A DNA stretch of 32,126 nt from Planctomycetota bacterium (GTDB lineage Bacteria; Planctomycetota; Planctomycetia; Pirellulales; Pirellulaceae): contig JAJRWU010000051.1 in the NCBI GenBank assembly GCA_024276655.1, positions 1-32,126 of the forward strand. The letters are read 5' to 3'. Positions 25,217 to 31,180 of this stretch are shown in pieces. The notes below the pieces were generated by a model. The model worked only from the letters and a program-made list of their open reading frames with translations. It had not been told where the DNA came from and did no database searches. The position numbers were made by a program, and so were the translations under genes. How positions within the stretch are numbered: position 1 is the first letter of the stretch; each line of letters opens with the position of its first letter.

Positions 25217-27400
25217 TCAGACGTTGGCAAGTGTGATCACCACGCCCTTGAACGCCGGCGTGAGCGATTGAGGATCGGGGCGGCGGGGAACCAGCACGTT
25301 CGCCTCCGGGAAATACATTAAAGCGTTGCCCGGTTTGATGCGATCAAAAGGCCGCACCAAAATGTCGTGCATCGCGCCGGTTTCACTCCGCACCACAACC
25401 GGCTGGTCGGCCTGGAACTGGAAGCGTGCCACATCTTGAGGATGCAGCAGAATGACATCTCGCCGATCTTGCTCGCGGTAAATATCCTGCTCTTCGTAGA
25501 CCACGGTGTTGAATTGCCCTTCGCTGCGCACGGTCATCAAACGCAATTCATGTTCGCCTTGCCCCTTGAGTTCGGGCAGCTCGTGGCAATGCAAAACAGC
25601 GCGGCCATCGGCGGTGGCGAACTTCGGCTGATGGAACGTTCGCCCGCTGACTTGAAATTCTTTTTTGGTTTGATCGATCTGGCCGATTTTTTCGAAGCCG
25701 GGAACCACGCGTGCGATGGCGTCGCGAATCGTACCGGTGTTGCGCATGGCTTCAAAATCGATTGGCGTGGAATCGCCGAGAACACGTTGCCCCAAATCGG
25801 CCACGACCTCCACTTCACTGCGAGGACCGGCATGCCGCGCGGGCCCGCCATCGCTCAATCGAATGAAATTGAACATCGACTCTTGCGTCGTCGGCTGCGG
25901 TTCTTCATCGCGGGCCAACACCGGCAAGATCAAGGTTTCCTTGCCCAAACCATGTGCGTGGCCGGTGTTGAGCGTGGTGCTGAGAAATACGAGCATATCG
26001 AGTTTCGAAAGCGCGGCGGCGGCGTATTCGGCGTCGGGATTCGAGCCGTACAGATTGCCGCCCAGGCAAAAACCCAGCTTCAGTTTTCCGGCGTGCGCGG
26101 CTTCCATGCAAGCCAGTGTGTCGAGCCCCGGCGCCTCCGGCAGCTTCAAACGAAAATGCGATTGCAGCCGCTCCAAGAGAGCTTCTTTTAGTTTCGGCGT
26201 CACGCCCACGGAGCCGATGCCCTGCACATTGGAATGGCCGCGAAGCGGCATCAAGCCGGCGTGCGGACGGCCAACCATGCCCCGCATAAGCGCCAAATTG
26301 GCGATCGCTTGCACGTTTTGCACGCCGTGGGCGTGATGCGTGACGCCCATCGTCCAACTGAAGACCACGTTTTTAGCCGCCGCGTATTTTTCGCTGAGGG
26401 CGTCAATCTCTTGTTTCGCCACGCCGCTCTTGGCGACAATCGCCTCCCAAGACATGGCCCGCAAGTTTTCGATCCACTCGTCGGCGCCGTGGCAGTGTTC
26501 TCGCAGGAAGGCGGCGTCGGCGGCGCCCATTTCATCAATACGTTTGGCGATGCCCGAAAGCAAGGCTAAGTCGCCGCCGATGTGCGGCTGCACGTACGAC
26601 GTCGCGATTTTCGTCCCCAACAGTAAACTGCGGGGATTGCTCGGCACGCGAAACTGCACCAACCCGGTTTCCACCACGGGGTTGATCACCACCACGTCGC
26701 CGCCCCGCTGCCGCACGTGCATGAGCGTGGTCATCAAACGAGGGTGGTTGCTGGGCGGGTTGCCGCCAATGACGAACACCATGTCGGCCTGTTCGACGTC
26801 GTCCAGCACGATGGTCGCGGTGCCGGACCCCACCGAACTGACCAAGCCGACCCCGCTGGCCTGATGGCAGTAATAGCTGCAATTGTTCACGTTGTTCGTG
26901 CCGTACAGTCGGGCTAACAGTTGCAGCAAAAAACCGGCCTCATTGGAGCTGCGGCCGCTGAAATACCAAAACGTCTCTTGAGGATCGAGGGCCAGCAGTT
27001 TTTCGCCGAGGCGGCGCATGGCGTCGTCCCAGGAAATCGGCCGGTAGTGCGATTGCCCTGGTTCGAGCAACACCGGCTGGGTTAGACGTCCACTCATTTC
27101 CAACGCTCTGGGCGTGAAAGCGGCGAGTTGTTCGACCGAGTAGGTTTGCCAAAATGAGTCGGGAATACCGCCTTGCAAATCGGCCGCCATGGCCTGCAAC
27201 GACTTTTTACAAACCTCCGGGAAACCGCCGCGTTCATTGACCATGCCGCCTTTTTGGCCGCCCATGCCGAGCGCGCATGTTTTGCAGGCGTTGCGCGAAC
27301 GCAAGGCCCGCCACATTTTCAGCAAGCCGCCCGCCTGACGCGATTTTTTCAGCGTGTACCAAATGGCCGGCCAGCCGCCGCCGTACTTCATTTTTTTCAT
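25217..27400 (-). CDS. FDH-like molybdopterin oxidoreductase (YdeP/FdhF type), Cys at Sec position
   Basis: A 727-residue molybdopterin oxidoreductase resembling the YdeP branch (formate dehydrogenase alpha-like). Seen: GGWPAIWYTLKKS; three Cys (39, 42, 64) in NACKTCALGMGGQKGGM...PEVC, a probable Fe-S site with one ligand not located; NNCSYYCHQASGVGL (172-186), aligning with the FdhF segment where Sec precedes three residues and CH, here Cys174; MVFVIGGNPPSNHPR (208-222), and the C-terminal cofactor domain (ending FPEANVLVPRR...TPAFKGVVI). ATG 27400 is chosen over the longer frame from 27445 because family members start just before GGW and the selA stop is only 16 bp upstream. The substrate is unproven; YdeP is linked to acid resistance in E. 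coli. No fdhD or electron-transfer subunit is here. Confidence 0.87.
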   Translation of the reverse strand: MKKMKYGGGWPAIWYTLKKSRQAGGLLKMWRALRSRNACKTCALGMGGQKGGMVNERGGFPEVCKKSLQAMAADLQGGIPDSFWQTYSVEQLAAFTPRALEMSGRLTQPVLLEPGQSHYRPISWDDAMRRLGEKLLALDPQETFWYFSGRSSNEAGFLLQLLARLYGTNNVNNCSYYCHQASGVGLVSSVGSGTATIVLDDVEQADMVFVIGGNPPSNHPRLMTTLMHVRQRGGDVVVINPVVETGLVQFRVPSNPRSLLLGTKIATSYVQPHIGGDLALLSGIAKRIDEMGAADAAFLREHCHGADEWIENLRAMSWEAIVAKSGVAKQEIDALSEKYAAAKNVVFSWTMGVTHHAHGVQNVQAIANLALMRGMVGRPHAGLMPLRGHSNVQGIGSVGVTPKLKEALLERLQSHFRLKLPEAPGLDTLACMEAAHAGKLKLGFCLGGNLYGSNPDAEYAAAALSKLDMLVFLSTTLNTGHAHGLGKETLILPVLARDEEPQPTTQESMFNFIRLSDGGPARHAGPRSEVEVVADLGQRVLGDSTPIDFEAMRNTGTIRDAIARVVPGFEKIGQIDQTKKEFQVSGRTFHQPKFATADGRAVLHCHELPELKGQGEHELRLMTVRSEGQFNTVVYEEQDIYREQDRRDVILLHPQDVARFQFQADQPVVVRSETGAMHDILVRPFDRIKPGNALMYFPEANVLVPRRPDPQSLTPAFKGVVITLANV

Positions 27401-27416
27401 CAGTGTTTTATCTGTC

Positions 27417-29157: not shown

Positions 29158-29218
29158 ATGATACCCCAAAGGCGCGCCGAACGTCATTGTGGGGAAACAG
29201 CATAGTGGAGCATCATCT

Positions 29219-31180
29219 TTACGAATTCGGCCGTTGCCGTAAATTATCATTGCGAACCGTGAAGCCGATGTCGTCCAGATACTCGCAAATCGGGATGGCG
29301 TACTTCCGCGTATTTCCCATCAGTTCGCGAATTTCGCTGAGTGTCAAACCGCCGCGTTCGGCGAAGGCGGCGTCGAGAAGCTCCTTGATTTGCTGTTCGC
29401 AGTCGGTGTGTAGGTAGCGATCGGCGGAAATAGCCACGAGGGTTCCATCGTCGGCGGCTAACTTGAGCAGTTGCGGAACGCGGTCGGCCAGCGATGTCGT
29501 TTTCGCCTGGCACTCCGCCACGCTGGGTGGACAAAAGCCGGCATCCAGATACCGCTGCTTAAGTTGCACGAGCAATTTCTGTTCGTTGCGGCTCAACTTC
29601 GGCAGACGCTCCGGCAGCGCCACGCGAGCGGCTTGGCGTTGGATGCGGCCATCTTTGCAGGCTGTTTTCAAGGCGGCGTCGAACAGCGGCCTTTCTTCGA
29701 TGTATTTGAATCGTTGGGCCAGCGGCGCCAGATCGATCCAAGTGGAGAGCGGTTGCTGGTCGTGCAGCTTCTCCAACGCATGCACGATGCGGACGGAGAG
29801 TTCTTCCAACACGCGACGATGCAGCCGGGCCACGCGCTGCGGTGAAAGCACGATTTCCACCACATCGCCGGCGGCCAGCAATTTCTTCAACACCGCCTCC
29901 TCTTGCAGCACGCCGGCGCGGCGGTACAGATCGCCCGGTTGGCAACCGGCCAAGCCCGAGAAATAAATCGCCGCCTTGGCGCGCTCCAAGGCGATGCTGT
30001 CTGCATTTTCACCAGTGCCGACCCTTGGCGGGTCTTCAATGCGCCAGGCTTCGCAGAGTGCTCGCTGTTCCGCTGAAAAATGTCGCAGCCGCTCCGCGTG
30101 AGGATCGAGCACGACGCCGCCGCCGATCGTCGCGACCGGCGATTCGCTACGCACGACAAACGGCTGCCGCCATGTCGCGACGGCCTCTTCACGTAAATGG
30201 AACTGGGCGAAGGTGGACTCGCCGGGCTGGAGTTCCGCCGTTTCCAACAGCACGACCGTGGCGAATGTTTCCAACGACCCCAAATGCAGCCGCACTCGCG
30301 CACGGTTTTTCAAAGGACGCGGCGCCGACTCCAACAAGTGCAATTCGACCGTGAACCGGCGGCTGCTCCGCAAATATCCGGCCGACGCAAGTTCTCGCCC
30401 ACATTGCACGTCGTCTTTCGACAAACCGGCCAGATTCACCGCCGCCCGCTGCCCACGGTACACGGCATCGACCAAACGGTCATGATTTTGCACGCTGCGA
30501 ACACGCGCCGCGGCGCCGCTGGGCTCAATGCGCAACACATCACCGGCGCGAATGCTTCCGCTGGAAACACTGCCCGTAACGACCACGCCATGCCCCTCCT
30601 TGGAGAACACGCGGTCGATCGGCATCCGCGCCGGTTGCTGGCGCAATTCCAAGCAACGGGTGATATCGACCTTCGCGGCGGCCGACCGCAGGGCGTCGCG
30701 CAGAGCGTCGATTCCTTGGGCCGTCTTTCCGCTGCAACGCACGATCGGCGCCGATTCAAAAACCGAACCGGCCACCAACTCTTGAATTTCAGCCTCCACC
30801 AAATCAAGCCAATCGGCTTCCACGAGATCGCATTTCGTGAGCGCGATCACACCGGCCTGAATATCGAGCAAACGCAGAATTTCCAAATGCTCGCGTGTTT
30901 GCGGCTTGATGGAATCGTCGCCCGCGACGACCAACATCGCCAGATCGACGCCCGTGGCGCCGGCCAGCATTTGGCGAACAAACCGCTCGTGCCCCGGCAC
31001 ATCGACCACGCCCAGTCGGTATTCGCCCAAATCGAGTTCGGCGAAGCCCAGTTCGATGGTGATGCCGCGTCGTTTCTCCTCCGGGAGGCGGTCGGTATCG
31101 ACGCCGGTGAGCAGTTTGACGAGCGAGGTTTTGCCGTGATCGATATGGCCCGCCGCGCCAAGTATGAGGTCTGTCGCCAT
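29219..31180 (-). CDS. selB: selenocysteine-specific elongation factor
   Basis: A 653-residue SelB, the GTPase that delivers Sec-tRNA(Sec) to UGA codons marked by a SECIS element. Seen: G1 [12 protein letters not shown] (8-19), switch [10 protein letters not shown] (38-46), G3 DVPGHERF (60-67), G4 TKCD (115-118), EF-Tu-like domains 2 and 3 (for example [14 protein letters not shown]), a SelB domain IV linker, and C-terminal winged helices ending [30 protein letters not shown], the part that binds the SECIS hairpin. All GTPase motifs and the C-terminal SECIS-binding unit are present, so the protein looks functional. Its length is slightly above E. coli SelB (614). No tRNA-Sec gene was found in the window. 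Confidence 0.97.

Follow-up and report, generated by a model that had tools for sequence, protein, structure and literature searches.

Does an enzyme gene that resembles those of formate dehydrogenases (FDHs) and directly follows selA depend on the selenocysteine (Sec) genes beside it? The question is raised by a 32,126-nucleotide stretch of Planctomycetota bacterium DNA (assembly GCA_024276655.1, contig JAJRWU010000051.1, positions 1 to 32,126; this whole stretch is called the window here), in which selB, selA and a molybdopterin oxidoreductase of the FdhF/YdeP family follow one another on the minus strand, the last with Cys where Sec might be expected. The original prediction, made from the sequence alone, offered two explanations: that the sel genes serve selenoproteins encoded elsewhere, or that Sec was replaced by Cys while the locus retained the Sec machinery. 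In our analysis the locus very probably holds two unrelated neighbors, a Sec-insertion system with targets elsewhere in the genome and a stand-alone Cys-type molybdoenzyme that needs no selenium. The neighborhood looks like a lineage-specific accident because the genome has likely selenoprotein genes at other sites and every sampled relative of the enzyme carries Cys.

The gene identities are clear from profile searches. SelB, the Sec-specific elongation factor (29219..31180, minus strand, 653 aa; Pfam GTP_EFTU and SelB-wing_3), matches positions 2-576 of the 581 in TIGR00475 with 343 bits (cut-off 242), and SelA, the L-seryl-tRNA(Sec) selenium transferase (27417..28844, minus strand, 475 aa), matches positions 1-454 of the 455 in TIGR00474 with 552 bits (cut-off 268), so that both are as complete as they had been judged to be. 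The selA open reading frame (ORF) opens upstream at a TTG at 28910 and its ATG is at 28844; the SelA of a congener is likewise 475 aa long. The oxidoreductase (25217..27400, minus strand, 727 aa; Pfam Molybdopterin and Molydop_binding) belongs to the TIGR01701 family, with 690 bits against a curated cut-off of 582. Its ATG at 27400 stands 16 bp past the selA stop on the same strand, and its frame is free of in-frame TGA; here the predicted coordinates, gap and lack of TGA all hold.

The residue at the Sec position was identified by MAFFT alignment with Escherichia coli FdhF, taken from the K-12 genome with its TGA read as Sec. The FdhF segment NNVDCCARVUHGPS aligns without gaps to NNVNNCSYYCHQAS of the oxidoreductase, which places Cys178 (TGC, 26867..26869, minus strand) opposite Sec140, His179 opposite His141 and Arg387 opposite Arg333. 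The original prediction had assigned the Sec position to Cys174 (TGC, 26879..26881, minus strand), using an FdhF motif, C-U-A-R-V-C-H-G, that the K-12 protein does not contain. It was right that a Cys fills the site and wrong about which one, as Cys174 pairs with FdhF Cys136. A structural alignment placing a different residue at the Sec position had been named as a possible refutation; the sequence alignment does place one there, and it is still a Cys.

Cysteine at this position is not peculiar to the window. In a set of 100 genomes of the same taxonomic family, the source genome included, orthologs of the oxidoreductase (defined at 59% identity or more) occur in 64, none of their rows contains a stop, and all 29 orthologs aligned with MAFFT have Cys in the Sec column. 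Across the phylum, TIGR01701 is matched over its cut-off in 65 of 294 genomes, again with every row stop-free; in the 30 of these loci with the highest scores, our own gene among them and with frames picked by tblastn, the Cys-His-Arg triad is invariant. The best 80 of 485 named loci encoding a relative likewise all have Cys in the Sec column. Close relatives with TGA at the Sec codon, which would have spoken against the original prediction, are therefore absent from both the 30 phylum loci and the 80 named loci. By contrast, seven of seven TGA-containing FDH genes examined, of which two come from genomes of this family, have their TGA in exactly the Sec140/Cys178 column; these seven (two family-genome rows and five of at least 23 phylum rows) were chosen for containing TGA, and three genes without TGA that were sampled alongside them have Cys there.

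A tree of Sec- and Cys-type proteins had been proposed as a check of the original prediction, and it separates the two. In a maximum-likelihood tree, a branch with 100/100 support divides 34 Cys rows (E. coli YdeP included and our own gene present twice) from eight Sec rows and one Cys FDH; locus L155 forms a long branch whose placement is unsure. Within the Cys side the window enzyme falls in a 24-row planctomycete group, whereas YdeP falls in an adjacent group of nine rows. The two share the subfamily, the Cys-His-Arg triad in the active-site columns of FdhF and a cysteine motif of the form CxxC...C, and differ within that motif, where our enzyme has Met and YdeP has Asp. With Sec-type FdhF and FdhA the enzyme shares a superfamily and the frame of the active site, but Cys178 stands in place of Sec140, all members of its own group that were read have Cys, one iron-sulfur cysteine fewer is present, and the group is separate. 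Because the sampling is all-Cys and the tree sets the group apart from Sec-type FDHs, Cys is most likely the family state, and a recent replacement is disfavored.

The remainder of the genome supplies candidate targets for the sel genes. A tRNA-Sec lies on another contig (66.4 bits against an Rfam cut-off of 47, with ARAGORN agreeing on tRNA-SeC); within the window, ARAGORN called no tRNA. A selD-type gene likewise lies outside the window's contig (locus L009, contig C177), with 271 bits against a cut-off of 125. In this fusion a pyridine-nucleotide-disulfide oxidoreductase domain precedes the SelD part, and TIGR00476 and TIGR03169 both score over their cut-offs. The sequence GCGGK stands at the Cys17-Lys20 place. 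The genome thus holds matches to selA, selB, a selD-type gene and tRNA-Sec, and the search for selD and tRNA-Sec that had been suggested for this locus succeeded on other contigs, with selD as a fusion.

Genes with an internal TGA were sought in four families only, TIGR02174, PF00578, PF00384 and TIGR04167, so that the selenoproteome described here is incomplete and more such genes are possible. The single TIGR02174 match in the source genome contains one TGA, as do four of the 20 AhpC-TSA (PF00578) matches, with one each. The five candidates are a SelW-like gene (L080, motif YCMQU), two AhpC-TSA-type genes (L082, ADWUPYC; L083, GDTUPVC), a BCP-like gene of the AhpC-TSA type (L096, FTGGUT) and a deiodinase-like gene of the AhpC-TSA type (L097, CLTUPPF). 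By type these sites comprise one CxxU in the SelW-like protein, two UxxC and one GGUT in the peroxiredoxin/thiol-oxidoreductase types, and one in the deiodinase-like protein; all five TGAs stand at catalytic motifs. The four AhpC-TSA-type candidates fall under the cut-offs of the NCBIfam models that they match, which makes any exact subfamily tentative; the deiodinase Pfam match of L097, at 26.1 bits, is just under its cut-off of 27, and its NCBIfam match is well under its own. The L083 candidate (L083:832-1968, peroxiredoxin type) has HEAT repeats N-terminal to its TGA-bearing AhpC-TSA domain. For Sec-type ArsS (TIGR04167) the source genome gave four weak matches, none over the cut-off and none with a stop, and none of its six molybdopterin-domain (PF00384) matches contains a stop, so no Sec-type molybdopterin enzyme was found among them.

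The candidates are also accompanied by hairpins that resemble Sec-insertion elements. A scan whose rules were set once the folds of the first five had been viewed, and which looks for an apical loop with GU on an ungapped stem of at least five pairs, finds such a hairpin after the TGA in all five candidates, with the loop starting 24-28 nt past the T of the TGA; the hairpins were reached by 0, 1, 7, 8 and 3 of 500 shuffles, respectively. All five candidates combine a TGA at a catalytic motif with a downstream hairpin, as putative selenoprotein genes would. SelW-like relatives that played no part in the design of the scan have the hairpin at 20 of 22 TGA sites (18 of 20 and two of two), and 19 of these 20 hairpins lie at the 25-nt offset with a loop that is mostly GUU or GUC. 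By eye, the bases of their stems vary among loci and the pairing is kept. The control rates are 3% in shuffles and one of eight Cys-form sites, the latter from a different SelW-like subfamily.

The distribution of SelW-like genes in the family links them to selA. TGA-containing SelW-like genes occur in 51 of the 100 family genomes, and selA is over its cut-off in 48 of these, compared with 19 of the 49 genomes that have no such gene (p 1.7e-9, relatedness ignored and selA judged by its bit-score cut-off, on which the result depends). In a hand comparison the two genes lie within 20 kb of one another in 12 of the 48 genomes with both. In G006 and G072, the two genomes whose sole SelW-like gene is of the Cys form, selA does not reach its cut-off. 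Single-contig genomes without an over-cut-off selA (G006, G011 and G072, for example) keep a SelA-like protein in open frames of 468-490 aa; its match is confined to the C-terminal portion of the profile, as for a diverged paralog.

Comparable systems have been described. By eye, a gene on contig C214 (L017) of the source genome reads like formylmethanofuran dehydrogenase subunit B and has Cys in a TCHAPS motif, presumably where planctomycete strain P2 has Sec in its fmdB. Strain P2, a Rhodopirellula, and strain P1, both associated with Porphyra, are reported to have complete Sec systems with Sec-type fdhA or fmdB (PMC4807772), and, as in the source genome, their selenoprotein genes lie away from the sel genes. 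They differ in the selenoproteins themselves, which in the account of PMC4807772 are fdhA in P1 and fmdB in P2, while the molybdopterin-domain matches of our genome are stop-free. SelW-, peroxiredoxin- and deiodinase-like selenoproteins appear among those listed in PMC13188914, and the bacterial examples in that source and in PMC1794560 belong to the same families and have the same CxxU, UxxC and TUPPF-type sites as the candidates here. The candidates differ from the known peroxiredoxin- and deiodinase-like selenoproteins in that the four AhpC-TSA-type genes score under the cut-offs of their NCBIfam models, so that their subfamilies are tentative.

Several observations weigh against this interpretation. 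The best-scoring NCBIfam model for the SelD fusion is TIGR04369, 'fusion_not_SelD', at 437 bits; because this is the top score, although under the model's 700-bit cut-off, SelD activity of the fusion is likely rather than certain. Three of the 51 genomes with a TGA-containing SelW-like gene lack an over-cut-off selA, two of them 82-86% complete (G063, G065) and one 99% complete (G002). The scan misses the selenocysteine insertion sequence (SECIS) of E. coli fdhF and, being post hoc as well, is not a validated SECIS finder, so its negatives mean little. Minimum-free-energy z-scores, calculated for a 60-nt stretch of each candidate, were not low throughout (-2.1, -1.4, 0.1, 0.7 and -1.0). A GU-loop hairpin follows Cys178 in 16 of 78 oxidoreductase orthologs, compared with 10.7% in shuffles. 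Finally, that the cell decodes the TGAs of the five candidates is inferred from sequence features.

The hairpins bear on the second explanation of the original prediction, in which the enzyme began as a selenoprotein FDH next to sel genes of its own and gave up Sec without loss of the machinery. The position of the oxidoreductase 16 bp past selA would suit such a history, as would the excess of hairpins among its orthologs, and conversions of FdhA from Sec to Cys, some with remnant SECIS-like structures, are documented (PMC1794560), where they are described as rare in FdhA, a gene that is often linked to sel genes. Yet the offsets of the ortholog hairpins are scattered over 13-33 nt, and the scan found no GU-loop hairpin after Cys178 of the window enzyme itself, a weak point, as the scan also misses that of E. 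coli fdhF. The mild excess likely reflects coding sequence shared by related genes, which does not fully explain it. Codon 178 is TGC, without the in-frame TGA of a Sec-type FDH; Cys occupies the site in all of the phylum and named loci described above; a long stem with 100/100 support separates the group from Sec-type FDHs; and selA does not reach its cut-off in 28 of the 64 genomes that carry the enzyme, although six of the 28 have a SelA-like match of 150-267 bits (cut-off 267.9). With the enzyme in an all-Cys group and flanked by sel genes, among the loci examined, in its own genus only, we regard a Sec-to-Cys replacement as highly improbable. The companion suggestion, that the sel genes serve selenoproteins elsewhere, fares better, and is favored by the five TGA candidates, the tRNA-Sec and the selD-type gene on other contigs.

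The arrangement had also been likened to classic fdh-sel loci, a likeness that the neighborhoods of relatives do not bear out, as neither spacing nor adjacency is conserved. Among 30 ortholog loci, selA lies beside the oxidoreductase in two, the window and the congener G014, and among the 80 larger named loci selA and selB occur in one (L165, Planctomycetaceae bacterium SZUA-33). Judging by their matching contig coordinates, L165 and G014 probably represent one assembly, which leaves a single other species as the evidence for adjacency beyond the window. Contig ends truncate some of the 30 and 80 loci, and neighbors could be missed there. A conserved fdh-sel operon is rejected on these counts, as no adjacency outside this genus was seen in the loci examined. 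Gene context yields no function either, since the commonest cluster of ORFs within 6 kb of the 80 orthologs is present in only 11 loci.

Since the two species of the genus share the adjacency, it could nevertheless have a function in them, which counts against treating the enzyme as an unrelated neighbor. The oxidoreductase might be co-transcribed with selA and serve selenium metabolism in the genus, for example in a redox step on a selenium compound; the shared strand and 16-bp gap in the window and the order selB, selA, oxidoreductase, PhoD-like gene, common to the window and SZUA-33, are consistent with this. In the congener, however, the selA-oxidoreductase spacer is 195 bp and contains inverted repeats, and selB and selA are split by 2.7 kb with two extra ORFs (L165:5989-8127), one with Fic domains and the other without a Pfam match. 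By hand comparison, the oxidoreductase and selA lie within 20 kb in only two of the 36 family genomes carrying the pair, namely the two of this genus, with contig breaks perhaps hiding some. The enzyme is, moreover, rarer in genomes with selA (36 of 67) than in those without (28 of 33; Fisher p 0.0035), in a comparison that hinges on the selA bit-score cut-off and ignores relatedness. We consider a functional operon very unlikely, though less so than a replacement, and infer that the adjacency is without function.

Whether the enzyme should be called an FDH at all is a separate matter. Its nearest solved structures by sequence are FDH-type proteins such as YjgC, and the triad of Cys178, His179 and Arg387 would be compatible with formate dehydrogenase. 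The iron-sulfur cluster cysteines of FdhF are C8, C11, C15 and C42. The oxidoreductase has C39, C42 and C64, with Met46 at the C15 place; other alignments pair its N-terminus differently, but none of the alignments offers more than three cysteines for pairing. In the 30 phylum loci the residue at the C15 place is Met in 23, Asp in three, Glu in three and Thr in one. FdhF/YdeP proteins of Pseudomonas putida are reported to act in formate oxidation, and family members reported there are P. putida PP_0256 and PP_4596 and Methylobacterium extorquens Fdh4A (PMC10308882). The same source describes FdhD as transferring sulfur to the FDH cofactor and as needed by the FDHs studied, and PP_0256 as sharing a transcript with fdhD, whereas the genome of the window enzyme has no match to FdhD (TIGR00129) in a search in which eight of 14 controls were positive. 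FdhD occurs in three of the 64 family genomes with the oxidoreductase, compared with 10 of the 36 without it. In six of the 13 FdhD genomes, by hand comparison, it lies near another FDH-like gene, at about 1 kb or less in G079, G082, G013, G077 and G089 and at about 5 kb in G099. Of the three genomes with both FdhD and the oxidoreductase, in G079 and G089 FdhD is next to that other FDH-like gene, and in G066 FdhD and the enzyme are encoded on different contigs. Because 61 of the 64 genomes that encode the enzyme, the source genome included, lack FdhD, the name formate dehydrogenase is doubtful. We tentatively suggest, at somewhat below even confidence, that the enzyme is not an FDH. It would instead belong to a planctomycete branch of the FdhF/YdeP family that is all-Cys and independent of FdhD, has three cysteines at its iron-sulfur site and acts on a substrate not yet described, its gene standing alone in about two-thirds of the family genomes.

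Between selB and selA lies an inverted repeat whose 34-nt arms match perfectly and enclose a 26-nt loop (28982..29075, no strand assigned). An exact-match search for it in the loci returned nothing. With up to three mismatches allowed, its 21-nt core has six copies, some overlapping, in 125.8 kb of other source-genome loci (L080:1391 and 1739; L083:675 and 2648; L100:475 and 1738), none in shuffles and none in the loci of 80 relatives, a pattern that marks it as a putative dispersed palindromic element of this lineage. A promoter and terminator scan was uninformative, with five promoter-like sites against 1.8 expected and 13 terminator-like sites against 10.4 expected.

In the interpretation that we favor, of two unrelated neighbors, SelA would make Sec-tRNA(Sec) from Ser-tRNA(Sec) with selenophosphate supplied by SelD, and SelB would carry the Sec-tRNA(Sec) to UGA codons by way of a GU-loop hairpin about 25 nt downstream. 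The UGAs decoded would most likely be those of the thioredoxin-fold candidates, namely the SelW-like protein, the three peroxiredoxin/thiol-oxidoreductase types and the deiodinase-like protein. The FdhF/YdeP enzyme would act independently of selenium, through Cys178-His179-Arg387 and its three-cysteine iron-sulfur motif. The SelW-, peroxiredoxin- and deiodinase-like families and the FdhF/YdeP family are not claimed as novel, and the locus is overall an ordinary one. It adds one more planctomycete to the users of Sec, with candidate selenoproteins of thiol-redox types and no Sec-type FDH found. It also illustrates that an FDH-like gene directly after selA, a classic genomic cue, can mislead, as the neighbor belongs to a paralogous Cys family and Sec probably goes into proteins encoded at other loci.

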